Below are positions 19,815 to 39,793 of a DNA stretch of 64,000 bases, piece after piece. A program made the translations under genes and the position numbers. The first letter of the stretch is position 1. Each line of letters starts with the position of its first letter. This DNA is from Aquificaceae bacterium (GTDB lineage Bacteria; Aquificota; Aquificia; Aquificales; Aquificaceae): contig JALWVU010000055.1 in the NCBI GenBank assembly GCA_027079305.1, positions 124,001 through 188,000 of the forward strand, in the 5' to 3' direction. The notes under the pieces are model-generated. The model saw nothing but the letters and a program-made list of their open reading frames with translations. It was not told where the DNA came from and made no database searches.

Positions 19815-22079
19815 TTACGGGAGAAGTAGTTTCCGAGCCAACTCTCTTTTTTTCATCCTGAGGGCTTCCGGACCGAGGTGGAAAACACCGAATGCTCTGA
19901 GGATTCTGTCATCCATAAGTATACCGCCCCTGTTGCCTTCGAGCCTTTTCAGAACCTGCTTTACCTCCCTGTTTATCTTCTGAAAGTCTTTTCCAAGCCT
20001 TTCGCGTTCGAGAATTTCCCTCAGCTTTTTCTCGAGATCTACCACACTTCCCAAGTAATCCAGGAAATCGTCTACGGACATACCAAGATCGGGAGGTTTC
20101 AACCCCTCTTCAACCATAATCCTCTTGAGGAGGTTCGCCCTTATGTGCCCTACACCTTTTATCCCGCCCAGAGCGGAAAACTCTTCGGTAAGTCCATACT
20201 TGACCGAGTGAGCTATCTTGAGTATCTCCTCGTTGCTCCAAGACACATCCCCGAAGCTCCTTATGTCCAGAAGGATCCTTATAAGGTGTAAGGCGTCCGT
20301 CCCCAAGTAGGAGAACTCCCCCGGGGGATGCTGAATATTCGGGTATTTGAAGGTAAGACCCTCTATGTAGAAAAGGAACTGGTGTGTATTGTCCGCAAAG
20401 CATTCCCCCCCACATGGGGCGAGCTTCTCCCTTATATAAAGGTCATCTTCTACGAAGCTTCTCCCTCTTTTTACAAACTCATACAGACCGTCGAAGCGCT
20501 TAACAAAGAGGAGAGGCCTTATAACTATTAACCTCTCAAGGCCGAGTAGCTTCCTTCTCAGGAACTCCTCATAATTGACAGGAGACATACCGGACCTTAT
20601 ACAGAAGAGAGCTTTGTCCGAAAGCTTACCTCTCTCTATGTAGCCGGTATCTTCGAGCCACTCGTATATGTCATCTATCAAAGGATCTTTCGAGAACTCC
20701 TTCAAGGAAAAGGTTCTTCTCAGAAACTTACGGAAGTTCTTTCCCTCATACAGGTAGCCTATAAGTATGAATAGGCTAAGTATTCTCTCAAGCTCCTCGC
20801 TCAGATCTCCCTCCCTGACCTTCTCCTTAAGGTAAGGCTCGAACTCACCCTCTATCTTCCTTCTCAATTCTTCCTCTATAGTGTCCGGTCTTGCTCCGTA
20901 GGGAAGTATGTAGGAGTATCCCTTTTCCTTTATTCCGAGCCTCCCCGCTCTACCTTCCATCTGAAGTATGTCAAGCTGTGAAGGGAAGATCTTCCACTTT
21001 CCCTCCCTCCTGTCGTAGAAAGCTCTTATACCTATGATCACCGTGTCCGCGGGAAGGTTCACTCCGTATGCGAGAGTGTGTGTTGCAACGAGAACGGGAA
21101 GTTCCCCCTTCCTGAAAGCTCTCTCTATCTCCTCCCTCTCCTCCCTCGGTATGTCCGCGTTGTGAAAGGCAAGCTCTACCTCTTCCCTCTCCTCCTTCTC
21201 GAAAGGTGTAGTCTCGTTCATAATACCTATCTTTTCCCGGTTGGCTATCTCCAGTATTTTCCAGCCCACATTCTTCTTGTGAACAAAGAGAATAACTTGA
21301 TCATCCTGCTTCTTCAGCTCGTAAAGGGCGGTCAGGAGCTTCGAAGCTATTCTCTCATCTTGGTCCTCAGGCTTTACGAAGTCCCTGAACTCGGTAAGCG
21401 GTATCACTTTTCTTTCCAGAGGAACCGGTCTCCACAGGGATTCTATAAAGAGATCCGCTCTTATCCACTTGGCAAGTTTTATACCTTCGGGGAGGGTTGC
21501 GGAAAGGCCAAGTATGTCCACACCGCTCTCCAGTAGATACGCTATCACCTCCTCCAGGACCCATCCCCTTGATCCTATCAGGTGATGAATTTCGTCTACA
21601 ACGACGCTTTCCGCCTCCAGGGCCCAAGGAACTTTGTTTCTTAAAGCCAGAGCGAGGTTCTCGTAGGTGGAAACTATCACGTCCGAGTGAGCGCTCTTAT
21701 AAAGCTCTATAACGTCCCCCGTTCTCATGTCAACCTTCTTGCCGAATAGCCTCTTCAGCTCCACCGCCTTTTCGTATACCAAAGACTTGGTGGGTGCTGT
21801 GTATACCTTCTTACCTCTCTTGCCTTTCATGAACATGAAAGCGATCAAGCTCTTTCCTGCAGAGGTGGGTGCGGATACGAGAGCACTTCCCTTTTTGTAT
21901 TTCCTGAAAAACAGAGTTTGGATTGGATTGAGGAGATCGTATGGAACACTTTCTCCAATCACTTTACCTTCAAGCAGGCCTTCTTCCCTGGGTCTTCCGG
22001 AAGGTGTTTTGTATACCAGCCTGCCTCCTGGTGGGTTCAGTTTAAACTCGGAGCTTTCGAGAACGAAGTAGTGTTTCAT
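19815..22079 (-). CDS. Ski2-like (Hel308-type) superfamily 2 helicase
   Basis: The 754-residue helicase has motif I SAPTSAGKS, DEIH box VVVDEIHH, motif III LSATLPE, motif IV-V ATHTLAYGVNLPADTV, and motif VI QMEGRAGR. The C-terminal third includes HhH-like sequence ALGGIKGVGHIRANLLKRI, as in Hel308. Ski2-type helicases unwind branched DNA or RNA and are typical of archaea and eukaryotes. The start overlaps the stop of the STT3 gene by 4 bp, so it is translated from the same mRNA. The N-terminal 55 residues before the Q-motif-like region are short and unassigned. Confidence 0.85.
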   Translation of the reverse strand: MKHYFVLESSEFKLNPPGGRLVYKTPSGRPREEGLLEGKVIGESVPYDLLNPIQTLFFRKYKKGSALVSAPTSAGKSLIAFMFMKGKRGKKVYTAPTKSLVYEKAVELKRLFGKKVDMRTGDVIELYKSAHSDVIVSTYENLALALRNKVPWALEAESVVVDEIHHLIGSRGWVLEEVIAYLLESGVDILGLSATLPEGIKLAKWIRADLFIESLWRPVPLERKVIPLTEFRDFVKPEDQDERIASKLLTALYELKKQDDQVILFVHKKNVGWKILEIANREKIGIMNETTPFEKEEREEVELAFHNADIPREEREEIERAFRKGELPVLVATHTLAYGVNLPADTVIIGIRAFYDRREGKWKIFPSQLDILQMEGRAGRLGIKEKGYSYILPYGARPDTIEEELRRKIEGEFEPYLKEKVREGDLSEELERILSLFILIGYLYEGKNFRKFLRRTFSLKEFSKDPLIDDIYEWLEDTGYIERGKLSDKALFCIRSGMSPVNYEEFLRRKLLGLERLIVIRPLLFVKRFDGLYEFVKRGRSFVEDDLYIREKLAPCGGECFADNTHQFLFYIEGLTFKYPNIQHPPGEFSYLGTDALHLIRILLDIRSFGDVSWSNEEILKIAHSVKYGLTEEFSALGGIKGVGHIRANLLKRIMVEEGLKPPDLGMSVDDFLDYLGSVVDLEKKLREILERERLGKDFQKINREVKQVLKRLEGNRGGILMDDRILRAFGVFHLGPEALRMKKRELARKLLLP

Positions 22080-23977
22080 TTAACTTTATATATAACAAAA
22101 GCAGGGAAGTTATCTTTGATCTTTTCAAAGTGTTTAAAATCTTCTACCCCCAGATACAGCTTGAACATCATAGAATTGAACAAAACCTCTGATACGTCCA
22201 TGTAAAACAGTTCTTCTTTGTGTTTAATGAGAAGTGCTATCCTTTCCTTTCCGTTTTTATTTGAATTCAGGATAGTTATCCTTTGGGAATCTTTATCTAC
22301 AAGCAGTATTCTCTTGTATGTCAGAATACGATCGACGATCTTCTTATCCCCATCAAAACTTATATCCTTAATATTAAATCTCAAGAGTAAACAGTTGTAA
22401 TTGATACGATCTTTTGACAAGCATTTAGTAAAAAACCATACAGGTGTTTCCTTTAAATCCTTCTTTCCTATATCGTAAATAACCCTCATTCTGGTCATTT
22501 CATTGGTTATAAGCACATAAATTTCTCTGTCAGGTTCTCCTTTATACTTCACAGCCTTTTCGTAGAGATTTTCCAAAGAACGCACATTTCTAAAATGATT
22601 CGTGTCTACAAAGCTGATAATTTTGTAAGCGGTGCTTTCCTCACTCGTCAACATACTTTTTGCAAATAGATAAAGCTTTTTAGGCTCAAAGTTTCCGTTA
22701 TCTACATATGTCCCCACACGAGAGGTATACTCTATCAGGTAGCCGTAATCCCACCAGGTCCAGAAGGAAGCTCTATATCGATCTTGCGGTTTTATATCTT
22801 TAAGGGCTTCATACAGTTCATCTGAGAACATAGGTTTTGGTATATAAAAGAAAACATTCGCGGGGATTAGGAATATGACAGTTATTAATCCGATTATAAG
22901 CTCACGAAGATTGGACCTGAAATTGATCTTTTCAAATATGTATGACAGCATGATATGCATTGCATAACCGAATCCAAGACCCAGGAACGGACTCAAATAG
23001 ATACTCATCCTGTTCCCTGCACCTGTAAAAACCGTCAGCCCGAGCAGTGCAAAGGGTAGAGCAATGGATAGATACCTGAAGTTTCTAAAAGTTAGAAGCA
23101 GAAATCCTATAGCGCTGATAACAAGCACAGGGAAGTTATCAGTAGTAAAATTGACAAGACCCTGCAAAGACAGAGGTTGGAGCTCAACTATATACTTGCT
23201 TACCGGCACCGTTTGCTGAACTGATGGAAACAACCTGACTATATATTGAGTCAGATCTGACTGTATAATGAAGTGGCTAACACCCATAGTAAAGAGCAAA
23301 GTCTTAAATAGGGTATCCTTGTAGTCTTCTCTTTTGAAATACTGATAGATTAGAAGTATAACAAGACCTGCTAAAAAAAATATAGATATAAAAGGTTTGT
23401 AATACCACCACATGAAAACGTAAAATGAAACAAGAGACAACCCTAAATACATCCATCCTCCGTAGGACTTTTTACTTATAGCAAGATCAAGAAGCAAGAT
23501 TATCAAAAATATAAAAAACAGTATCATAAAGTCCGTATCAAATCTTCCCACAGTAGCTCTTACATAGTAACCGTATCCGAAAGCCCCTAAGGTTATTCCT
23601 CCGAGAGCGACAGGTAAGGGAGCAAAGTTTCTTACCCACAGATAGAGTGGAATAGCGAATAGCAAGGACATTAGAGGTGGAAGGTATAGAAAAAGCGTTT
23701 TAATCTCGACTCCGAATATACCGCTTAGAACCGCAGGTATTACTGATATCAAAGGAGGAGGCTTAGGGTAAGGCATAAAGTCGGGTAGATTTCTCAGGAG
23801 ATCAATTCCACTATAGATACCTTCCTTTAATTCTTCCGTATATCTGGCATAAAGAAAACAATCCGCGCAGGTTAGTATGTTCTCCTTATCGAGTAAATAC
23901 TTTAGCGGTTTAAGTTTGATGTATACGAACAGAATAGAAAGTAGTAGGAAAAAAATCATCTTTATCTTACCGCGCAC
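22076..23977 (-). CDS. STT3/PglB-family oligosaccharyltransferase
   Basis: The 633-residue protein has about 12 N-terminal membrane helices and a C-terminal globular domain. The family's acidic motifs are all visible: ADCFLYARYTEE early (first loop Asp), ATVGRFDTDFM (second DxD-type motif), IVELQ in the large external loop, and WWDYGYLIEYTSRVGTYVDNG, the catalytic WWDYG. After it, KSMLTSEESTA resembles the M-x-x-I region. STT3 enzymes move a lipid-linked glycan to Asn in N-x-S/T sites on the outer face of the inner membrane. It overlaps the upstream pilin-like gene by 16 bp, and the neighbouring pilins carry several N-x-S/T sites, so they are the likely substrates. Glycan assembly genes are not in the window. 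Confidence 0.9.
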   Translation of the reverse strand: MRGKIKMIFFLLLSILFVYIKLKPLKYLLDKENILTCADCFLYARYTEELKEGIYSGIDLLRNLPDFMPYPKPPPLISVIPAVLSGIFGVEIKTLFLYLPPLMSLLFAIPLYLWVRNFAPLPVALGGITLGAFGYGYYVRATVGRFDTDFMILFFIFLIILLLDLAISKKSYGGWMYLGLSLVSFYVFMWWYYKPFISIFFLAGLVILLIYQYFKREDYKDTLFKTLLFTMGVSHFIIQSDLTQYIVRLFPSVQQTVPVSKYIVELQPLSLQGLVNFTTDNFPVLVISAIGFLLLTFRNFRYLSIALPFALLGLTVFTGAGNRMSIYLSPFLGLGFGYAMHIMLSYIFEKINFRSNLRELIIGLITVIFLIPANVFFYIPKPMFSDELYEALKDIKPQDRYRASFWTWWDYGYLIEYTSRVGTYVDNGNFEPKKLYLFAKSMLTSEESTAYKIISFVDTNHFRNVRSLENLYEKAVKYKGEPDREIYVLITNEMTRMRVIYDIGKKDLKETPVWFFTKCLSKDRINYNCLLLRFNIKDISFDGDKKIVDRILTYKRILLVDKDSQRITILNSNKNGKERIALLIKHKEELFYMDVSEVLFNSMMFKLYLGVEDFKHFEKIKDNFPAFVIYKVK

Positions 23978-24360
23978 TTTATACCCTCTCCGGAAGATGT
24001 GGTCAGTTCACATTCTGCATATCCAGAAACACCATTTAGAGAGGCTCTGACATTTGCCCGTTGTGGAAGTCCATTTGAACTACAACTGTCAGCATCTATA
24101 TGTAGGGAAACTATATAGTCCATTATGGTAGTATTTGAACATCCCCTAAGTTCGGTAACATTCACACTTCTGTTAGGGTTGTCGTTGCAGTATGAAATTA
24201 TGTCCATTAAGCAAAACCTCGCTACAGGTTCCGCATAGGAGCTGAGCTTAGCTTTATGTTGGTATTTTATATAAATTGGCAAGGATATAGACGCAAGAAT
24301 AGATACTACAGCTATAACTATTATAAGTTCTATGAGTGTAAACCCATAGTTAACTCGCAT
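23962..24360 (-). CDS. Type IV pilin-like protein
   Basis: The 132-residue prepilin has a very short leader, MRVNYG, then FTLIELIIVIAVVSILAS with Glu at +5. After it comes YIKYQHKAKLSSYAEPVARFCLMDIISYC, nearly the same as in the larger pilin next to it, so the two are paralogues. The C-terminal head differs and has three N-x-S/T sequons (NRS, NVT, NTT). CATTAT lies 6 nt before the ATG, directly after the terminator-like hairpin behind the first pilin gene. It overlaps the STT3 gene. Confidence 0.9.
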   Translation of the reverse strand: MRVNYGFTLIELIIVIAVVSILASISLPIYIKYQHKAKLSSYAEPVARFCLMDIISYCNDNPNRSVNVTELRGCSNTTIMDYIVSLHIDADSCSSNGLPQRANVRASLNGVSGYAECELTTSSGEGIKCAVR

Positions 24361-24400
24361 AAAAAAATAATGTAAAAAGGGGCCCAGGGGCCGAAAGCCC
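24361..24400 (-). terminator. GC-rich hairpin and T-tract after the major pilin gene
   Basis: Read on the minus strand, the TAA stop is followed by a GC-rich self-complementary stretch (GGCC-CCTG-GGCC inside AAGGG...CCCTT). Then come TTTTT and a second run of seven T just before the next ATG. This fits a Rho-independent terminator or attenuator that would keep pilin transcript far above that of the second pilin and STT3. Confidence 0.6.
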
Positions 24401-24859
24401 TTAGATACCCCTTACCGTGCACCTTATACCGTTGTTCTGGAATACGCAATAAGCTTCATAGTCACTAACACCTGACAAGTTTGCAGTAATGGATGTACCA
24501 TCGGAAAGAGCGTTTGTAGCGGAGTCGCAAGTAAAGTTCGCAGGTGCGTTCAAAGTAACCGTTCCCCCTGGGGTGGTTACGTTGGTAGTTGCACAGTTGG
24601 GAGCGGTTGTAGAGTTGATTGAATACGTACCTGGTGCAGCTTCATTACAGTATGAAACCAGATCCATAAGACATCCCCTAGCTACCGGCTCAGCGTAGGA
24701 GCTAACCTTAGCTTTACGCTGGTATTTTAGATACTGCGGAATTGCAAGGGATGCCAGTATGGCTATGATGGCTATGACGACCAGTAGCTCGATGAGGGTG
24801 AAACCCCTCTCCCTGTTGAGCTTCCTGCTGTCCTCAAAAGACTTGTAAAGTTCCCGCAT
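24401..24859 (-). CDS. Type IV major pilin candidate
   Basis: The 152-residue prepilin has a 19-residue leader ending RERG, then FTLIELLVVIAIIAILASLA with Glu at +5 of the mature form and PQYLKYQRKAKVSSYAEPVARGC. The head is rich in Thr, Asn and Ala with a Cys pair near the C-terminus (CVFQNNGIRC) and four N-x-S/T sequons (NST, NVT, NFT, NLS). A strong GGGAGGTAGG ribosome site, its own promoter and a following terminator-like hairpin suggest high expression, as for a major pilin. Confidence 0.92.
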   Translation of the reverse strand: MRELYKSFEDSRKLNRERGFTLIELLVVIAIIAILASLAIPQYLKYQRKAKVSSYAEPVARGCLMDLVSYCNEAAPGTYSINSTTAPNCATTNVTTPGGTVTLNAPANFTCDSATNALSDGTSITANLSGVSDYEAYCVFQNNGIRCTVRGI

Positions 24860-24892: not shown

Positions 24893-24924
24893 TTTATATC
24901 AACTTTTGTGAATAAAACGTGAAT
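24893..24924 (-). promoter_or_regulatory. Pilin promoter with direct-repeat (OmpR/PhoB-type) box
   Basis: On the minus strand ATTCACG (24924-24918), four bases, and ATTCACA (24913-24907) form a direct repeat with 11-bp period. A TATAAA -10 candidate follows 8 nt later at 24898-24893. The same arrangement, TTTCACG-N4-TTTCACG, precedes the minor pilin/PilY1 operon at 38189-38172. OmpR/PhoB-type regulators bind such repeats in place of a -35 element. Confidence 0.55.
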
Positions 24925-24927
24925 GAT

Positions 24928-26058
24928 TCACAACATAATATTTTGGGATAGATCTTCGAGAGCTTCGAAAAGTTTCTCCAGATCATTCTCTTTATACCTA
25001 AGGCTGACAGTTAACCTCAGCCTGGCCTTTCCCTTAGGGACAGTAGGATACCTTATGGCCTGAAGGAAGATACGTCTTTCCAAAAGTTTCTTAGACATGT
25101 CCAGAGTTCTCCCTTCGTCACCGATCACTATGGGAATTATAGGAGTGTGGTGGAACATGATCTCAAAGGGGAGCCCCTTAAGTCTACTGTAGACGATTTC
25201 CGTCAGCTCTCTCAATCTTTCTACCATTCTGGGATCTTCCTCAATTATCTTCAAACTCTCCAGCGCTCCCGCGCAGACAGGAGGAGGCAGGGAAGTAGTG
25301 AATATCAAACTTCTCGACCTGTTTACAAGAAGCTCTATAAGAGCTTCGCTTCCGCACACGAAAGCCCCGTAGCTTCCGAGAGCTTTCGAAAGAGTTCCCA
25401 TAATGACTACGTTTTCTCTCCACCCCAGTCCAAGTTCCTCAAGACTACCTTTTCCTTTACCTACCGTTCCAGTCCCGTGGGCGTCGTCCACGTAGAGGAT
25501 GCAGTCGAACCTCTCCGATATATCATAAAGCGCTCTCAGATCCGCCATGTCTCCGTCCATGCTGAATACTCCGTCCGTAACTATGAGGACTTTCCCGTAT
25601 CTGTGCCTCTCTCTTTTGAGAATTTCCTCCAGCTGTGTGTAGTCTCTGTGTCTGAAGACCTTTCTCTCCGCCTTTGAGAGCCTGCACCCGTCTATGAGGG
25701 AGGCATGATTCAGCTCATCGCTGAGGATGAGGTCTCCCTCCTCCGCGAGGACAGGTATGGTCCCCACGTTCGCCATGTATCCGGACCCGAAGAGAACACA
25801 GGAAGGTGTTCCTTTGAACTTGGCAAGCTCCTTCTCAAGCTGAGCATGAACCTCCGTGTAGCCCGAAACCAGCTGGGAAGCCCCGGAGCCGAGTCCGTAT
25901 TCCTCGAGAGCCTTTTTCGTGGCCTCTATGACCCGCGGATGATCCCGCAGGCCCAGGTAGTCGTTGGAGCAAAAGTCTTTCAATTCTTCCCTTAGTATCC
26001 TCTTTCTGTAGAGATTTTTATTTTCAAAGTCATACAAGATCTCCCTTACCCAGTCCAT
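24928..26058 (-). CDS. bioF: 8-amino-7-oxononanoate synthase BioF
   Basis: This 376-residue PLP enzyme of the alpha-oxoamine synthase family shows SNDYLGL near residue 30, SGYTEVHAQLE, SDELNHASLIDGC, DDAHGTG, and the PLP lysine in MGTLSKALGSYG. It joins pimeloyl-ACP or pimeloyl-CoA with alanine in biotin synthesis. Other bio genes are absent from the window. Its start codon is 11 bp from that of the divergent TPR gene. Confidence 0.92.
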   Translation of the reverse strand: MDWVREILYDFENKNLYRKRILREELKDFCSNDYLGLRDHPRVIEATKKALEEYGLGSGASQLVSGYTEVHAQLEKELAKFKGTPSCVLFGSGYMANVGTIPVLAEEGDLILSDELNHASLIDGCRLSKAERKVFRHRDYTQLEEILKRERHRYGKVLIVTDGVFSMDGDMADLRALYDISERFDCILYVDDAHGTGTVGKGKGSLEELGLGWRENVVIMGTLSKALGSYGAFVCGSEALIELLVNRSRSLIFTTSLPPPVCAGALESLKIIEEDPRMVERLRELTEIVYSRLKGLPFEIMFHHTPIIPIVIGDEGRTLDMSKKLLERRIFLQAIRYPTVPKGKARLRLTVSLRYKENDLEKLFEALEDLSQNIML

Positions 26059-31310: not shown

Positions 31311-31772
31311 TTATTTAATGTAAAATGCCTCCACTCTTGCGTAAGTGTTCCTATCTCCGTAAGCCTCCGATATTATTCTGTATACCGCTCCCGCCTCCGC
31401 TGTCCCTGGCGTTCCCAAGTAAGCTGTCCCAGAAATGCCATAACCGGAGGCCTGACCTACATAGCATATGTATATCTTTGTGATGTATACATTCCCGGAA
31501 CTTGCTAACCTATATTGCATCTCTAATCCTTTGGTGCTACAGTCTTCTCCGGGTCTGCAACAGTAGTTGGGTGATACATCACCATTTATTATTCTAAGTA
31601 TAGCATGCTCCACGCCTCCCTTAGCAGCATCCCTAACACTCGAATAGATCTTTACTGTTTCTGAACTTTCAAATAAACGCTTTAGGAGTAGATACAAACC
31701 GCCGACCGCCAAAAAAGTCATAAGTGCTATAAATATAACGGATACAAGGGCTATACCTCTGTTACTCATCAT
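31311..31772 (-). CDS. PilX/GspK-like minor pilin
   Basis: The protein is about 153 residues with the ATG at 31772 in ATGA overlap with the upstream gene; a longer frame exists. The leader MMSNRG is followed by IALVSVIFIALMTFLAVGG, a pilin helix without the usual Glu at +5, as in GspK and some PilX proteins, which sit at the pilus tip. The head has a CC pair and more cysteines. It is the last gene of the pilY1 operon. Confidence 0.75.
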   Translation of the reverse strand: MMSNRGIALVSVIFIALMTFLAVGGLYLLLKRLFESSETVKIYSSVRDAAKGGVEHAILRIINGDVSPNYCCRPGEDCSTKGLEMQYRLASSGNVYITKIYICYVGQASGYGISGTAYLGTPGTAEAGAVYRIISEAYGDRNTYARVEAFYIK

Positions 31773-32818
31773 CCTGCGTTTCCTATGTTCCTTATAGGAA
31801 CATCTAACTCTATTACGTTCCATCTATACCACCTCCAGGAAGAGTCGGCGGAAGACAGAGCCCCCCCACAGTTTGCACTGAAAGAAGGTATTCCCCCATC
31901 CGTGCTGGTTCTGCCACCCACCTGAACTATAAGACAAACCCTCACGCCTCTAATGAGCTTAGAGTTATTGGTAGTTAGGGAGTCAACATAAGGCGGTGTC
32001 CCTGAGACAATATACCTGACGCGGAAAGCTGCCACGCAGGATATTACAGGTTGAGGTGTTTCAGGATATATCCTTTTGTATAGTGTATAGGTTCCGGGTG
32101 CACAGGAAGCGGGTTGATTCGGGTCGCTTCTAAGAAAGTAGGAAGTGGCAAAATCCGAAATGTAGGTATAACTACCCTTAAAGAAGACAAGTGCCCCAAG
32201 AGATAATGGAGAACACCGAACACCACCTTGAGCTGAACAGGCTGTATCTGCACTACAGCTAACGCTGTTAAGCAATCCTTTTGTGGCTGGATTCAAGACT
32301 ACCACGTTGGTTCCAGTAAGTGCGGAAGGATCACAGGGTGAACCAAGAAAGGTTAAACTCTGAATATTAAGGCATCCATCCTTGTCTATATATCCCCAGC
32401 AACCGCTGTTGCCGGAGCTTCTAACAGCAAGACTGAAAAAATAAAGCTCGTTCCTATCAGGATCGGTAGTTGATATAGCTATAAAACCGGAATCAACACT
32501 ATTCACATCTGTGGTAGCAAACGTGCTGAGGGAGCCGCTGGCTATAGTTCCATTTGTTCCATACGCCTTATCTATGGTTCCGTTAGCATTGGAAGGATTG
32601 CCATCACTATCAAGCACACCGAACCCTGCGCTCTTTATATCTGTTATAAGCTGGTGTATAAGAGACACGGATTCCTGTTCACTCTTGGCAACAAGAGCGG
32701 AGCCAACAGACCTTTCCACTATAAACTTGTAAGCTATAAATATTCCGCTACCTATTACAGACAAGATAGCAATGACAACGAGAAGCTCGACAAGTGTAAA
32801 AGCCCTATTCCTATCCAT
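31769..32818 (-). CDS. PilW-like minor pilin
   Basis: About 349 residues from the ATG at 32818; a GTG at 32830 is also possible. The leader MDRNRA is followed by FTLVELLVVIAILSVIGSGIF with Glu at +5, so the residue before the cleavage site is Ala instead of the usual Gly. The large head contains several cysteines and ends with a region like PilW proteins. It probably joins the tip complex that primes pilus assembly with PilV, PilX, FimT and PilY1. Confidence 0.78.
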   Translation of the reverse strand: MDRNRAFTLVELLVVIAILSVIGSGIFIAYKFIVERSVGSALVAKSEQESVSLIHQLITDIKSAGFGVLDSDGNPSNANGTIDKAYGTNGTIASGSLSTFATTDVNSVDSGFIAISTTDPDRNELYFFSLAVRSSGNSGCWGYIDKDGCLNIQSLTFLGSPCDPSALTGTNVVVLNPATKGLLNSVSCSADTACSAQGGVRCSPLSLGALVFFKGSYTYISDFATSYFLRSDPNQPASCAPGTYTLYKRIYPETPQPVISCVAAFRVRYIVSGTPPYVDSLTTNNSKLIRGVRVCLIVQVGGRTSTDGGIPSFSANCGGALSSADSSWRWYRWNVIELDVPIRNIGNAG

Positions 32819-32822
32819 ACCT

Positions 32823-33440
32823 CTACCCACCCCTTATAACAAGAGTTCTAAAATCTTTATACTTACCATTCCAGGGATCGAAGTACCATACAACTATGCC
32901 TACCGCTACTTTTTCAGGTGTAGTTCCAGTTGGTGGTGCTACTCTGGCTATGGTAAGAGCAAGGTATATGTCTCTCCCCTTGAATCTGTTAACGCATCTG
33001 ACTCCAGCAGGTATTGAGGAGGTAGTGTTGTTCCTTATAAGGCATCCTCCTCCGGATGGATAAACATATAGCCAACCTGCGGTATTTAACGGTGTAGTCT
33101 TAAAGCTATCGTTATTACCGTTATAAGGATCGTAGAAATCCGGGATCCCATCGCTATCACTGTCTCTATTTTCAAAAGCACATGAGGTTCCCGAACACGG
33201 AGCATTATTCCAATTCCCTATAAAGGCTGTAGGCCTGAAGAGTGGCGCATCCGGAGGCAAACTCTCTATGTAATTGGATATAGACTTTCCTATCTTCATG
33301 GCTTCATCTTTCATTTGTGCTCTAAGAGACAGAAGCGTATAATCCAAGATACCCTTTAGGAAGCCCACCATAATTATAAAGAGAAGAAGTATTGCAACCA
33401 AAAGCTCTACGAGTGTGAAACCGTCGTTATTCGACCTCAT
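32823..33440 (-). CDS. PilV-like minor pilin with calcium-loop motif
   Basis: The 205-residue prepilin has leader MRSNNDG then FTLVELLVAILLLFIIMVGFLKG. The head contains NRDSDSDGIPDFYDPYNG (bases about 33129-33170), which resembles the Asp-rich calcium loops of thrombospondin type 3 or dockerin repeats. N-x-S/T sequons (NDS, NNT, NTT) are present. It overlaps the FimT-like gene by 14 bp. Confidence 0.78.
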   Translation of the reverse strand: MRSNNDGFTLVELLVAILLLFIIMVGFLKGILDYTLLSLRAQMKDEAMKIGKSISNYIESLPPDAPLFRPTAFIGNWNNAPCSGTSCAFENRDSDSDGIPDFYDPYNGNNDSFKTTPLNTAGWLYVYPSGGGCLIRNNTTSSIPAGVRCVNRFKGRDIYLALTIARVAPPTGTTPEKVAVGIVVWYFDPWNGKYKDFRTLVIRGG

Positions 33441-33939
33441 ACCTTATTCTCCCGAAACTCGTTATGTATATAGATCTTCTTGAGCCGGTGACCGTACTTC
33501 TCAATGTTATAGTTACAGGACCAACACCGCAGCCGTCGTTTCTGGGGTAGCCTTTTCTGTCAAAAACAACACTTGAACCTGTATCTACAACCACACCCGG
33601 CGGAAGATCAACTCTCGATACCACATCAGCTGTTCCTGAGTAGTTGCAGCTGGCGTTTACAGTTCCAGTTATATTACAGCTCGCATCTCTGTCCTCAAAA
33701 ATAAGATAGCAGTTTTCACCCGGACTCAGATAAACTCCCCACATATATCTTCCAGAAACGGACATAGTTTTAGCCTTTGAAAGATCATTCATTAGCATAT
33801 CCGCAGCATTTTTTAACCTTTGGTTTGCTACAAGATTTATTATCCAGTTATAAGCAACGCCCATTATTATGGAAATGATTGCGATTATAATCAAAAGCTC
33901 AATTATACTGAAGCCTCTTTGCTTTACTTCTCTATCCAT
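33427..33939 (-). CDS. FimT/FimU-like minor pilin
   Basis: The 170-residue prepilin has leader MDREVKQRG then FSIIELLIIIAIISIIMGVAYN and a GspH/FimT-type continuation (NAADMLMNDLSKAKTMSVSG). It ends with SRRSIYITSFGRIRYE, typical of this group. Three sequons cluster in CNITGTVNASCNYSG. It overlaps the end of pilY1 by 16 bp. Confidence 0.82.
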   Translation of the reverse strand: MDREVKQRGFSIIELLIIIAIISIIMGVAYNWIINLVANQRLKNAADMLMNDLSKAKTMSVSGRYMWGVYLSPGENCYLIFEDRDASCNITGTVNASCNYSGTADVVSRVDLPPGVVVDTGSSVVFDRKGYPRNDGCGVGPVTITLRSTVTGSRRSIYITSFGRIRYEVE

Positions 33940-36900
33940 AGGATAATACCTCTCCTCCCGGTAGCTTGGTAAGGAATCCTTTCTATTTTCCCTGTCGATG
34001 TTTGTAGGTATATAGCTTTCTCCGTTATCTGTATGGGCTGACCTCCGGCGGGAATACCTGGACCAAGGTTGACAAACCCTCTTACCTGCACACGTCCACC
34101 ACCAGCGTCTTCTACCATGTCAGGTCTAAGGAGAGGAGGTCTCGGAGCATACGGTTTACCGGATGTATAGTGTAGAGCGTAGAGATTGCTTGTTCCTTCA
34201 AGGGCACATACATCACTTCCCGGAGACTTATATGTATTGAAATAAACTATGCTTCCAAAGACTGCAGGTTGAGAGTAGGCAGCTTCATAATCGCTGAGCT
34301 GAACAGACCATCCTTTTTTCGTCGTTGGACTTGGAGGTGTAGCCCTTGTTGCTACTATGACTTCTTTATTCTCACACACACCGTTATCACAAGTACATAT
34401 CTCCTTCTTCTCTGTAACTACAACTTCGTCGCTCAGCATATCCGCCTGAGTAAGGTTATCTATATCACATCCACTGATGAGATCACAATTGTATGTTGTC
34501 TGACAATGTCCATCCCAGCAGGGGTCCTTTATACCGAATAGATAGTTGGTGTAAGGCGGAGTTCTGTCATCCAGACTCAGGAACTTACCTGTTCCAAAGT
34601 ATACCCATAGTTGACCCTTATCATCACGAGAAAATGTAGGTGCTCCGAAAACGGGAGGTATGTGGTTATCGGTAGCGTAGTCTCCCAGATCTACAACCGC
34701 GGAGATGTCCGAGCTTGTGAGGCTGGTTATGGCTTTATAACCATTTGTATCCGTAAGACTTGTATCACTTACATCCCTTAACCTTAGTCTGAAGAAACCT
34801 CCCCAGGAATACCAGTCTCCTCCCACCTTGTGCTTACCATACATACCAAAGTAAAGGCTATCGTCCCTATAATCGTTGTCAAAATCTATCGGGTATATAT
34901 CTCCGACAGCAGCCTTTGTATCAGGAGGAAGGTCTATGCTTACCTCTACTATGTCCCCTGCGGTAAGGCCGTTCTTAATGGGGATGAAGTATATCTTGGG
35001 ATTTGTAGGATAGTCTTCCTCGTCCACACTGTTTTTAAGCTGTGTGGGTCCACTTCCGATAACCACATACCATGAGCCGTTTTCATTGGGATCCCCTGTT
35101 CTGATAACTGCAGGGAATGAAAGCGTAAGTGTATTGTCCGGTAACTTCGTCTCCCAGAGAAGTTTTATATCGTTTATACTGCCACCGTTCAACCACTTGG
35201 TAAGATCCAAGACGAAAACGGAAGATGCATATGTTTGATCGGTGGTGATCTTCTTCCCACCGAACCCCATAACACCTATAAGTATTGTGCTCCAGCACTT
35301 GTCCCCCTTCTTTACACAGCCCTGCAGGTTGGCAGAGACATCGAGTATGTTTATCCTGTAATCTACCGTGGGAACTCTGCAGTAATTATTATGTCCATAC
35401 CAGTATAGGTATGGAATAGCATTCTTGGGCATGAAAGCGAACTCTTCCACTCCGACCTTTGTGCTGGAGGAACTTCCGGGAGCATTTACAAGCTCTATAG
35501 GTTTGGCCGGGTTGAAGGTTTCTTTCAGATGTCCCATTCTGAATATGTGAAGCATGCCATCGTTTGCGCTTACAGCAACTATGCCGAATCTGCTTTGGTA
35601 TTCCGTAGAGGTCCAGTATTGATAGTAGGTTATATCTCCATACCTTGAATCGTAAATCCTTAGTTTTCTGTTCCCGGCTCCCACAGGTGTGGAGTAGACT
35701 ATATCTCCGAGTTTCCATGTTTTTTCTCCCGTTATACCTACGCTACCGCAGAAGTTGGTAACATCGAGAGTTCTTGTCCTCTTTACACTATCAAAGCTAC
35801 CGCAACCAGATGGGTTGTCGTTTCCGAGCAGGTATTCTATAACACAGGAGGCTTCCGAAGAGCTAATAGCTTGACAAACTCCTCCTGCTCCACAGTCCGC
35901 GTTACTGGAGCAGAGCTTGGTTGAATCATTACTGCAAACCTTCCATATGTTCCTGAAATATGTTGCTTCGGAAGGGGTAAGCTTTTTCAAAGCTCCATCC
36001 TTATTGAAGTATACATTCCTGTTATGAGGATCAGTATTGGCGAGAGTACATCCTGAGTTGAACACAGGTATAAGCTCCTGTATAGATTTAGTGGAATCCG
36101 CACTGCACACGTTGGGGTAGTCTTCATCAAGTATTACAGCCTTGGTAGAAGCATCCGCGGTATCGTAGAAGAACTGGAACACTCTGTCTATGGAAGTTCC
36201 CGATATGTTCAAAATCTTGCTCTCAACGGTATCTTCTCTGAGGTCCTGATTAGCGTCGACCCAGAAAGATCTCAGGAAGCCCAACCAGGATATCTGTGCT
36301 CCATCATCCCGAACGTAGGAGGGGTAGAAATATGGCTGGACTATGAGCGAGGATACCTGACTACGGGAGGCGAGTGTGGCTACCGTTGCTCCAGAGGAAG
36401 CTCTTCTGAGAATATCGAGTATTGCACTTAAGATAGCGTTTTTAATTTCCGCAGCATTAGAGGCATTGTAAAAAGTATCGGGCACACCATCTCCGTCTTT
36501 ATCCCAGTCAGGAGATGAAGGAGGCAGGTCCGTGCAACCACTACCTCTGCCGTAACCGCAGTCGTCCATGGAACAGGTATCTGTCGGATACCCGGAGAGG
36601 CCATCCGGCCAGGTCTTGGACCTATCAAAAGAACCATACATGGCAACATTTTTGACCGCCAGTTCTCCCGTGCCCCTCAACCATAGACCTATGCCGTATA
36701 CAGCTTCCACGTAGGAATCTATACCTGTGATTCTGTTCGTAAAACCTCTCTTATGAAGCCAATAAGCGGGAACTACAGGGTCTGCTGAGTGATCTTCGTA
36801 TCCATCATAGATACTACATGAAGATCCAACAGGATTCCCTCCACGGTTCCATTGCCCGTCAGTAAGTAGAATTACGAAGTTCTTTGCACAGGGGACAAGC

Positions 36901-37862
36901 TCAAATTCGTTACTTTCACACTGACCGTTTTCATTTTTATCTATGCACTGATACATAGGATTTCTCCATCTATCACCGGATCCTTGCTGTGGGATGAAAC
37001 CATTATATTGGGGATCTTCTTGAGCAAAGTAGTTATACGCATCCCAAAGGGCCGGTGCGGTGGGAGTGGCACCATCTGGATCCTCTACGTTTATCTGTGT
37101 AATCACGTTCTTATAAGGATTTAAAGCATCGTAGTCGTTGCTCCCTTTAAAATCGCCTATATAAACGAGTGCATCGTGCCTCACACTTCTACCGCTGAAG
37201 AACATAACACCAACACGGGGCTTCAGGGAAAGGTTCTTTAACTGAAAGAGAAGAGAACTGTGTATCCTTTCCCAAGGGACCTTTACCCTTATACCCCTGT
37301 AACCCTCCAGGATACAACCTGTGTCATCACATGAAGTTTGATCTCCGGGCATACCGTAAGCTTCAGGATTACATCTATTAAACGATGGATTATATACATT
37401 CACACCGGTAGAGCAGCTACTGAGCGTGCCCCCTGTCAGTGCCCATCTGACAAGATCTATTCTTGTCATGTAGAGGAAGTTAAGACAGCTTCCCCTGTAA
37501 GCGCGGTTTAGTCTTATATCCTGCCTGCGGTTCGGACAGCTGGAAGGCGTTGCATTGGTTTCTTCCCAATATCCTCCACTCCAGTTATACCTATATACCT
37601 TATCTGGTATAAAGTATCCTTCCTCTGTACCAGTATAGGTCCATCCACAACCGCTGGACCTGTAGCAACATCCACGTCCATTAGATCTGGGATTGTACGC
37701 ACACCTCGTCATAGAACCACTTGCGTCTATGACCAGTAAGATGTTGGGTGCGACCGCTTGACTTATGAAAGGAGGTGTGAAGCAATAGCTTTCCATAGAG
37801 GCTGAGTGTGCTGATTTAATAAGTAAGAAGCACATAAGGATCAAAAACATTACTGCTCTCAT
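33924..37862 (-). CDS. pilY1: PilY1-like type IV pilus tip protein
   Basis: The 1312-residue protein has a signal peptide (MRAVMFLILMCFLLIKSAHS). A von Willebrand A domain follows with MIDAS D46-A-S48-G-S50. A central Asp-rich loop DWDKDGDGVPD lies near base 36490. The C-terminal PilY1 beta-propeller includes the calcium-loop-like DFDNDYRDDSLYFG near base 34875 and RFGIVAVSANDGMLHIF. PilY1 works at the pilus tip in assembly, adhesion and surface sensing. It lies 2 bp after the small secreted gene and overlaps the minor pilins, forming one operon. Confidence 0.9.
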   Translation of the reverse strand: MRAVMFLILMCFLLIKSAHSASMESYCFTPPFISQAVAPNILLVIDASGSMTRCAYNPRSNGRGCCYRSSGCGWTYTGTEEGYFIPDKVYRYNWSGGYWEETNATPSSCPNRRQDIRLNRAYRGSCLNFLYMTRIDLVRWALTGGTLSSCSTGVNVYNPSFNRCNPEAYGMPGDQTSCDDTGCILEGYRGIRVKVPWERIHSSLLFQLKNLSLKPRVGVMFFSGRSVRHDALVYIGDFKGSNDYDALNPYKNVITQINVEDPDGATPTAPALWDAYNYFAQEDPQYNGFIPQQGSGDRWRNPMYQCIDKNENGQCESNEFELVPCAKNFVILLTDGQWNRGGNPVGSSCSIYDGYEDHSADPVVPAYWLHKRGFTNRITGIDSYVEAVYGIGLWLRGTGELAVKNVAMYGSFDRSKTWPDGLSGYPTDTCSMDDCGYGRGSGCTDLPPSSPDWDKDGDGVPDTFYNASNAAEIKNAILSAILDILRRASSGATVATLASRSQVSSLIVQPYFYPSYVRDDGAQISWLGFLRSFWVDANQDLREDTVESKILNISGTSIDRVFQFFYDTADASTKAVILDEDYPNVCSADSTKSIQELIPVFNSGCTLANTDPHNRNVYFNKDGALKKLTPSEATYFRNIWKVCSNDSTKLCSSNADCGAGGVCQAISSSEASCVIEYLLGNDNPSGCGSFDSVKRTRTLDVTNFCGSVGITGEKTWKLGDIVYSTPVGAGNRKLRIYDSRYGDITYYQYWTSTEYQSRFGIVAVSANDGMLHIFRMGHLKETFNPAKPIELVNAPGSSSSTKVGVEEFAFMPKNAIPYLYWYGHNNYCRVPTVDYRINILDVSANLQGCVKKGDKCWSTILIGVMGFGGKKITTDQTYASSVFVLDLTKWLNGGSINDIKLLWETKLPDNTLTLSFPAVIRTGDPNENGSWYVVIGSGPTQLKNSVDEEDYPTNPKIYFIPIKNGLTAGDIVEVSIDLPPDTKAAVGDIYPIDFDNDYRDDSLYFGMYGKHKVGGDWYSWGGFFRLRLRDVSDTSLTDTNGYKAITSLTSSDISAVVDLGDYATDNHIPPVFGAPTFSRDDKGQLWVYFGTGKFLSLDDRTPPYTNYLFGIKDPCWDGHCQTTYNCDLISGCDIDNLTQADMLSDEVVVTEKKEICTCDNGVCENKEVIVATRATPPSPTTKKGWSVQLSDYEAAYSQPAVFGSIVYFNTYKSPGSDVCALEGTSNLYALHYTSGKPYAPRPPLLRPDMVEDAGGGRVQVRGFVNLGPGIPAGGQPIQITEKAIYLQTSTGKIERIPYQATGRRGIILWIEK

Positions 37863-37864
37863 GG

Positions 37865-38149
37865 CTACTCCCTCTCAACACTTAAAACTTTGTAGGTTTT
37901 ACCTTCCTCGCAGGTTGAACTATTCAGAGTTACAAACACTTCCTTAGATATGAGATCTTCAGCAATAGGTTTGTCTATACCTGTTAGGTATATCTTGGCT
38001 CCGCGACATGCACCGCTGAGGCTTATAGCTCTAACCGTCCCGGACTCTGCATCATACCCCTCTATTCTGACCTTTATGTCAATTTCGTCTGCCCCGAACA
38101 CTAAGCTTATTACCGCTGTTATACTTAAGATTACTACCCTCTTCATCAT
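37865..38149 (-). CDS. Small secreted protein heading the pilY1 operon
   Basis: The 94-residue protein has a signal peptide (MKRVVILSITAVISLVFGADE) and a beta-rich body with two cysteines (SGACRG and SSTCEEG). Two ATGs in a row leave the start at 38149 or 38146. I do not recognise the family. The place as first gene before pilY1, with 2 bp between, suggests a periplasmic partner of the pilus tip complex. Confidence 0.65.
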   Translation of the reverse strand: MMKRVVILSITAVISLVFGADEIDIKVRIEGYDAESGTVRAISLSGACRGAKIYLTGIDKPIAEDLISKEVFVTLNSSTCEEGKTYKVLSVERE

Positions 38150-38156
38150 GGATATA

Positions 38157-38189
38157 TAGATACCAATAGACCGTGAAACTATCGTGAAA
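38157..38189 (-). promoter_or_regulatory. Minor pilin/PilY1 operon promoter with OmpR/PhoB-type box
   Basis: On the minus strand TTTCACG (38189-38183), ATAG, TTTCACG (38178-38172) is an exact 7-bp direct repeat with 11-bp period. A TATCTA -10 candidate (38162-38157) follows 9 nt later. The box starts right after the histidine kinase stop. The near-identical box at 24907-24924 precedes the major pilin gene. Confidence 0.6.
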
Positions 38190-39155
38190 TTACCTTCTAA
38201 ACTGCAGGATAGTGGTATACGTATCTCTCCTTATCCTTATCCTCATAACGCCTTTCATTCTTTCAACCATATACTTGGCTATCTGTGTTCCTACACCTCT
38301 CCCTTCGGAAACTTCACCTATATCGTTCCTTACAATTATGCAGATCATGCGTCTTCTTGTAAAGCTCTTTACGTGGACTAAGCCCCGGGCATACTTTATA
38401 GCATTCTCCACAACTATACTTACTATGTTCTCGAAGTAATCTGGATTTACGTTTATATACGTATCTTTAACACTCAGAATAAGCCTATCGGGTTTTCCGT
38501 AAACCTCAACCCATTCCTTTACGTTTTCCAAAATAACGGGTTTTACGTTTACCTTGCTTTTCTTACTATCCTCCCCCTTTTTGATCCTTTCCATGAAGAA
38601 CATTATGCGCTCAAAATCCTTCTTCATCCTATTAGTCTGAGCTGTAAGTCTTTCCACAGCCCTCTTATTCTCACAATCCTTAAGTATTTCCAGATTTATC
38701 TGCTGAACCGCGAGGAAGTTACCCAGCTTGTGGGTTATGGACAAGAGTAGCAAATTTAGAAATTCCTCTCTGGATTTCTCCCTTAGATAGAACCTTTTAA
38801 CTACCACGTAGGCTAATAAAAGTATTGATGTTACTGTTATGAACTCCCATGCTAACAGTGACAGGATAATTTTTTTCAATTTGTCCCAGAGATAACCTTT
38901 TTTAACGTATATAAAGTTATCATCCAAATATGCTTTAAATATGTAATTTGGGTTGTTTATAGGTTCGGAGGATACAATTATATGGTCAGGTGTGCTAAAT
39001 CCATTCTCTTTAAGGAGGATAGATGTTTCTATCTCCTTGAAAAGATTATACTCAACCTCTTTTTTCAACAGGGATATTGTATAGATGTTTATCGTTGAAA
39101 GTTCTATGAAGGTAAGTACAGCAAAACTTAAAAGTATCTTATGTTCAAATCTCAT
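38190..39155 (-). CDS. Membrane histidine kinase next to pilus operon
   Basis: The 321-residue protein has an N-terminal membrane helix, a periplasmic stretch of about 65 residues, a second helix (LLAWEFITVTSILLLAYVVVK), a dimerisation helix with SITHKLGNFLAVQQ, and an ATPase domain with N-box VVENAIKYA and G-box EGRGVGTQIAKYMVERM. The phospho-acceptor region lacks the usual HExxxP pattern. It overlaps the response regulator gene by 4 bp. The direct-repeat boxes nearby suggest that the pair controls the pilus genes. Confidence 0.85.
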   Translation of the reverse strand: MRFEHKILLSFAVLTFIELSTINIYTISLLKKEVEYNLFKEIETSILLKENGFSTPDHIIVSSEPINNPNYIFKAYLDDNFIYVKKGYLWDKLKKIILSLLAWEFITVTSILLLAYVVVKRFYLREKSREEFLNLLLLSITHKLGNFLAVQQINLEILKDCENKRAVERLTAQTNRMKKDFERIMFFMERIKKGEDSKKSKVNVKPVILENVKEWVEVYGKPDRLILSVKDTYINVNPDYFENIVSIVVENAIKYARGLVHVKSFTRRRMICIIVRNDIGEVSEGRGVGTQIAKYMVERMKGVMRIRIRRDTYTTILQFRR

Positions 39156-39793
39156 TTTAAACGATAGCCTATCCCTTTATGGGTCTCTATACTGCCCTTA
39201 GGAAGAACTTTCCTAAGCTCCTTTATATATGCTCTAACAACTTCGGATCCTACAGGCTTATCTTCCCATACTGAACTGAGTATAGTTTCTGTTCTAAGGA
39301 CCTTTCCCCTGTGCTTGATAAGTAGCAACAGAAGCTCCCATGCCTTTTTAGAAAGTTTATATTCTTTGCCTTCACGTTTTACAAGCATAGACTGAGTATC
39401 TACTATGGCACCGTTTATATCAATTATATGAGATGGCTGTTGTCTTCTCACCAAAGCTTTCAATCGTAAAAGAAGTTCCTTCGGATTAAAGGGTTTGGTA
39501 AGGTAATCGTCAGCCCCGAGTTCAAAGCAGATTTCCTTATCTTTTATACTACTCTTCGCGGTTAGTATTAGAACGGGTGTGGAAATTCCTCTATCCCTTA
39601 TCTCTTTCAGTATGTCCTCACCGCTACCGAACTTTAGCATCAGATCGAGGACTATAACGTCGAAGCTACCCAAAGCATCTACATCCACATATCTATCGTC
39701 AGATATCCACCTCACCTCAACGTCCTGGCTTTCCAAGTATTCTTTTAAGCTCTCCCCAAGTATAGTATCGTCTTCTATGAGTAGTATCCTCAT
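39152..39793 (-). CDS. OmpR/PhoB-family response regulator
   Basis: The 213-residue protein has a receiver domain with acidic pair ED-D at 7-9, phospho-acceptor D50 in VLDLML, and switch Lys in LTKPF. A winged-helix DNA-binding domain (about 125-213) follows, with AWELLLLLIKHRGKVLRTE and AYIKELRKVL, ending HKGIGYRLK. Regulators of this class bind 11-bp direct repeats, as seen before both pilus operons in this window. It is divergent from the diheme cytochrome gene. Confidence 0.92.
   Translation of the reverse strand: MRILLIEDDTILGESLKEYLESQDVEVRWISDDRYVDVDALGSFDVIVLDLMLKFGSGEDILKEIRDRGISTPVLILTAKSSIKDKEICFELGADDYLTKPFNPKELLLRLKALVRRQQPSHIIDINGAIVDTQSMLVKREGKEYKLSKKAWELLLLLIKHRGKVLRTETILSSVWEDKPVGSEVVRAYIKELRKVLPKGSIETHKGIGYRLK

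Follow-up and report, generated by a model that had tools for sequence, protein, structure and literature searches.

A direct-repeat box shared by the major pilin and PilY1 tip-operon promoters of an Aquificaceae bacterium: a candidate operator of an OmpR-type response regulator

INTRODUCTION

Two response regulators of type IV pili serve here as points of comparison: AlgR, which has a LytTR DNA-binding domain, and PilR, which is a sigma-54 activator. In Pseudomonas aeruginosa, the FimS(AlgZ)-AlgR two-component system positively regulates the fimU-pilVWXY1E operon, and the kinase receives feedback from the tip proteins (PMC5979040); in the same organism, the promoter of pilA, the major pilin gene, is controlled by the two-component system PilS-PilR (PMC6058289). 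For the OmpR/PhoB family, the direct PhoP box is found about 12 nt before the −10 hexamer and overlaps the −35 region, which is the class II layout, and in Salmonella PhoP also acts from reversed boxes placed 27, 37, and 48 nt from the −10 (PMC3335776). Our search of the literature, which was not exhaustive, found no type IV pilus regulon in the deep-branching Aquificota and nothing direct on the control of pilA by an OmpR-type regulator.

RESULTS

The features described below were found in a 64-kb window, that is, the whole stretch of DNA analyzed, and are on its minus strand except where stated. The gene for the major type IV pilin, pilA (24401..24859, with its ATG at 24859; N_methyl match), is followed after a gap of 40 nt by pilA2 (23962..24360; N_methyl match), coding for a second pilin that is 50% identical to the first, and pilA2 overlaps by 16 nt the gene for an STT3/PglB-type oligosaccharyltransferase (22076..23977). 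Judged by this spacing, pilA, pilA2, and STT3 probably form one transcription unit; STT3 also adjoins pilA in several relatives, in agreement with the link between the two genes proposed when the DNA was read from its sequence only. A GC-rich hairpin with a T-run is present between pilA and pilA2 (24345–24420), possibly an attenuator limiting downstream expression, and its folding energy is no better than that of shuffled sequences (z −0.81). A simple scan for sigma-70 promoters and terminators around pilA likewise returned nothing above shuffles.

The second locus, the tip operon, starts with a gene for a 94-residue secreted-type protein (37865..38149), which has a counterpart of similar size 5′ of pilY1 in relatives. 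Next come the gene for the PilY1-type tip protein (33924..37862; PF05567, 4.8e-10) and, within 31311..33939, four genes for minor pilins or pilus-like proteins (33427–33939, 32823–33440, 31769–32830, and 31311–31823) whose order is conserved. Three of the latter code for prepilins (N_methyl) and one for a small membrane-type protein; the last gene of the region (31311–31823) has no family match. With PilY1 and several minor pilins of the prepilin type encoded together in a conserved order, this is a type IV pilus minor-pilin/PilY1 operon. Upstream of it are genes for a compact membrane histidine kinase (38190..39155) and for an OmpR/PhoB-type response regulator of 213 residues (39152..39793; PF00072, 3.3e-21; PF00486, 2.3e-17), which we propose to be the protein that binds the boxes described below. 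The kinase has an H-box, an N box, and a GxGxG motif, with weak PhoR-like matches and no match to a Pfam kinase domain in 38190–39155; the residues that define a sensor histidine kinase (H142, N251, and G287/G289) are invariant in 35 homologues. Its H-box, H(K/R)xGN, is unusual and invariant as well.

Read from 24924 to 24893, the DNA upstream of pilA consists of ATTCACG, TTTT, ATTCACA, the 8 nt AAAGTTGA, and TATAAA. The direct-repeat box ATTCACG-N4-ATTCACA (24907..24924, with ATTCACG at 24924–24918 and ATTCACA at 24913–24907) is in the forward orientation relative to pilA and is conserved in the g1 relatives; the −10-like hexamer TATAAA (24893..24898) follows 8 nt past the box, exactly as the sequence-only reading had it, or 9 nt from the core. 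No −35 match was found at the standard spacing upstream of this hexamer. An extra, inverted half-site ATTCACA (24926..24932, plus strand) abuts the box just upstream. The second box, TTCACG-N5-TTCACG (TTCACGATAGTTTCACG, that is, TTCACG ATAGT TTCACG; 38172..38188), starts 1 nt past the end of the histidine kinase gene and its stop codon, a position conserved in relatives, with the 94-residue protein/pilY1/minor-pilin operon downstream. Both boxes have a period of 11 bp, and the earlier claim that they match in half-sites and spacing, with TTCACR in common, is borne out. That reading had also placed the pilA box 13 kb from the regulator; the figure is right for the distance to the other box (13.3 kb), whereas the regulator gene is about 14.2 kb away. 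At the tip operon, the sequence and the offset profile point to a weak −10-like hexamer, TATCTA (38157..38162), from which transcription would start nearly without a leader. Since this hexamer is only 7 nt from the ATG of the gene for the 94-residue protein, and since no ribosome site is visible in front of that gene (38149–38162) where most relatives have GGAGG, its mRNA may be leaderless here.

The genome was scanned with consensus patterns, allowing mismatches, and with a reversed-pattern control. The pattern TTCACR-N5-TTCACR (TTCACRNNNNNTTCACR) has 2 matches in the 2.01-Mb genome, the pilA box and the tip-operon box, and the reversed control has none in the whole genome, so that the motif is not one that is common at random. 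Within the window, 2 exact matches are present where dinucleotide shuffles predict 0.02 per 64 kb; scaled up, however, these shuffles give about 0.6 exact matches per genome, and two matches in 2 Mb are therefore unremarkable alone. This expectation is what speaks for a chance origin of the likeness between the boxes, or for its origin by drift of sequence in AT-rich promoters. Rarity by itself carries little weight; what counts is the location of the matches, in front of the operons for the type IV pilin and for the tip, and their recurrence there in relatives. A relaxed pattern (TTCACGNNNNNTTCAY) has four matches in the genome, the same two, one that is intragenic, and one that has no predicted gene immediately downstream. 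There are 26 matches with one mismatch, as compared with 10 for the control; they are mostly intragenic, and none is at another recognizable pilus gene of this genome. Among the intergenic ones are matches that precede a TonB-receptor-like gene (L019) and a gene for a 125-residue protein (L004). The former site (G000:C55:351698–351714) reads TTTACGTTAATTTCACG and is accompanied by further TTTAAC-type repeats, which are perhaps the box of another regulator.

Recurrence was examined in 60 relatives, with regulator orthologues defined by an E value below 1e-55; in a search of genome contigs, a single relative was clear, an Aquificaceae MAG. The regulator orthologue is common in this set, and the order regulator, kinase, gene for a protein of about 95 residues, PilY1, and minor pilins is conserved in part of two families. 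In the linked loci of relatives, TTCACGATTTTTTCAY or a close form of it comes directly past the kinase stop codon, and the box still precedes the 94-residue protein/pilY1 operon in genomes with an unlinked regulator. At pilA, many genomes have exact boxes in a constant position. Within the window's genus, eight genomes, this one included, have the box 61–73 nt upstream of the gene, and a ninth (G014) has a forward box, TTCACATTCCTTTCAC, on a contig that appears to overlap the pilA contig at its end. The letters of the TTCAC core are nearly invariant at all three classes of site, while the spacer varies.

In tests of presence and absence that treat genomes as independent and ignore shared ancestry, the regulator and PilY1 co-occur (p 8e-6), and a pilin-promoter box that keeps 9 or more of the 10 core letters is found in 23/34 genomes with the regulator and in 2/10 without it (p 0.011; G033 and G057 were added to this count by inspection). 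A further 30 genomes were held out, with the rule set beforehand and search windows 10–20 nt wider at either end than in the first run; on the same assumption of independence, the pilA box was recovered in 9/16 regulator-positive and 1/9 regulator-negative genomes (p 0.04), and the pilY1 box in 6/9 and 0/4, respectively (p 0.07). Among the held-out genomes, two of the more distant family f4 carry TTCACGATTTTTTCAC (G066) and TTCCCGATTTTTTCAC (G067) past the kinase gene. Recurrence of the box in corresponding positions across many genera, the invariance of the TTCAC cores, and the recovery in held-out genomes already contradict chance resemblance, to which we give hardly any credence. Thus, the proposal that the two boxes mark a common regulon linking the major pilin, STT3, and the tip proteins gains support from the presence of the box at both promoters in relatives, from its tracking of the regulator orthologue, and from the held-out genomes.

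The pilA half of the putative regulon is not universal, because several f3 genera and f4 have no box at pilA, while their tip-operon box is retained or degenerate; some regulator-positive genomes have a box at neither promoter. In the upstream regions of pilA in g13 (L139 and L143), there is no TTCAC box, and TGACA/TGTCA inverted repeats are found instead, perhaps a replacement operator.

The domains of the regulator, a receiver and a Trans_reg_C winged helix, place it in the OmpR/PhoB family, although its score against the PhoB equivalog of NCBIfam (127.1 bits) is below the cut-off of 296.2. Pfam detects no LytTR domain of the AlgR type and, in this 213-residue protein, gives the receiver and Trans_reg_C alone, with no sigma-54 activation (AAA+) domain of the PilR type. 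Tandem direct repeats with a period of about 11 bp near a core promoter are what an operator of the OmpR/PhoB family looks like, and the boxes have this form; their pairing with this particular regulator is a prediction, and the recognition helix bears on it. The helix, VVRAYIKELRK, is kept with small changes in the regulator orthologues. Paralogous response regulators of f3 (L227–L232), with a similar helix, VRANIKLLRK, have TTCAC-N6-TTCAC about 25–40 nt upstream of their own genes, which suggests that this sister regulator may autoregulate through the box. Helix type and box go together, and binding by the regulator at 39152–39793 is therefore supported, though unproven. The same paralogues, however, are a reason to consider that a different transcription factor, OmpR-type or unrelated, binds the boxes and that their linkage to the kinase/regulator pair is incidental: as they, too, apparently act through this box, the binder may differ in some genomes. 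Moreover, two genomes (G010 and G083) keep the pilA box with no regulator orthologue detected; PilY1 is absent from them too, by assembly gaps or by loss. Against another binder, only four OmpR-type DNA-binding domains are encoded in this genome, and the VRAYIKELR helix belongs to the regulator at 39152–39793 alone, the others having, for example, VDVHIKHLR; in most genomes, too, the box and the regulator orthologue occur together. We consider a different binder improbable.

The geometry of the promoters bears on the direction of control. At forward sites, −10-like hexamers that start 8–10 nt past the second TTCAC are commoner than in shuffles, within a window that was picked after inspecting the sequences, and no single offset is sharp for the forward pilA boxes. 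This geometry, an 11-bp direct repeat with no −35 and a −10 at 8–10 nt, fits class II activation as by PhoB and PhoP. Many other genera have the pilA box in reverse (GTGAA-N6-GTGAA; L138, L142, L144, L148, L151, L152, L156, and L165), with a TTGACA-like −35 about 5 nt downstream of it and then a −10; at offset 5, the match to TTGACA averages 3.4, whereas shuffles reach 2.9 at most. Mechanistically, such an operator is plausible, since Salmonella PhoP works from reversed boxes. The same regulator could also repress one or both operons by blocking polymerase: the −35 region, overlapped by the box, is also a place where repressors bind, and in its reversed form the box adjoins a fairly good −35/−10. 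Yet the promoter of the window's genus has no −35 and should be weak without an activator, and its spacing to the −10 matches that of the class II activator sites of PhoP (PMC3335776). Because the forward sites show this layout, activation is the favored direction, and repression, if somewhat less improbable than a different binder, is unlikely.

DISCUSSION

From the box itself, its rarity, its conservation at both promoters, the geometry of the promoters, and the association with the regulator, all of which are observed, we infer with a probability of roughly 0.8 that the box at 24907–24924 is an operator of the response regulator encoded at 39152–39793, which would bind as a tandem dimer and co-activate pilA(-pilA2-STT3) and the tip operon. 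The adjacent kinase would phosphorylate the regulator in response to an envelope or surface signal; sensing of the surface or of the tip by the kinase is suggested by analogy with FimS-AlgR only. The phosphorylated regulator would then bind the 11-bp direct repeat and, in the window's genus, the box would take the place of the −35 element in class II activation of pilA(-pilA2-STT3). At the second box, the regulator would activate the operon for the 94-residue protein, PilY1, and the minor pilins, so that fiber and tip are made together.

A broader proposal is possible, if doubtful: that one two-component system encoded with the tip genes co-activates fiber and tip across the Aquificota, senses the tip complex or the 94-residue protein, and feeds back, and that the pilA operator was turned round between genera with a switch from a TTGACA-containing to a −35-less promoter, the regulon being conserved through promoter re-architecture. 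The reversed pilA operator of other genera would be a natural experiment on how far regulators tolerate a change of operator orientation. If our main reading is correct, one OmpR-type system couples the supply of fiber, probable pilin glycosylation, and the supply of the tip, for which P. aeruginosa uses separate systems, and its short operator, TTCAC-N6-TTCAC, would be open to experiment.

Like FimS-AlgR, the system described here is a two-component system at a minor-pilin/PilY1 operon, its control being predicted here from sequence. It differs from FimS-AlgR in that the regulator has an OmpR/PhoB winged helix and is encoded, in many genomes, within the tip gene cluster, in that the box stands at pilA too, and in that feedback, documented for the P. 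aeruginosa system, applies here by analogy at most. Like PilS-PilR, it is a candidate for two-component control at the major pilin promoter; unlike PilS-PilR, it has no sigma-54 activator domain, and a single regulator seems to act on fiber and tip alike. The operator resembles the Salmonella PhoP box (PMC3335776) and the Pho box of PhoB in being a direct repeat of the 11-bp type, near the −10 and over the −35, but its core is TTCAC-N6-TTCAC, its regulon would be that of type IV pili, and its orientation at the same gene differs between genera. The system would thus work like FimS-AlgR and PilS-PilR yet through a regulator of another family, and the regulon itself would be new.
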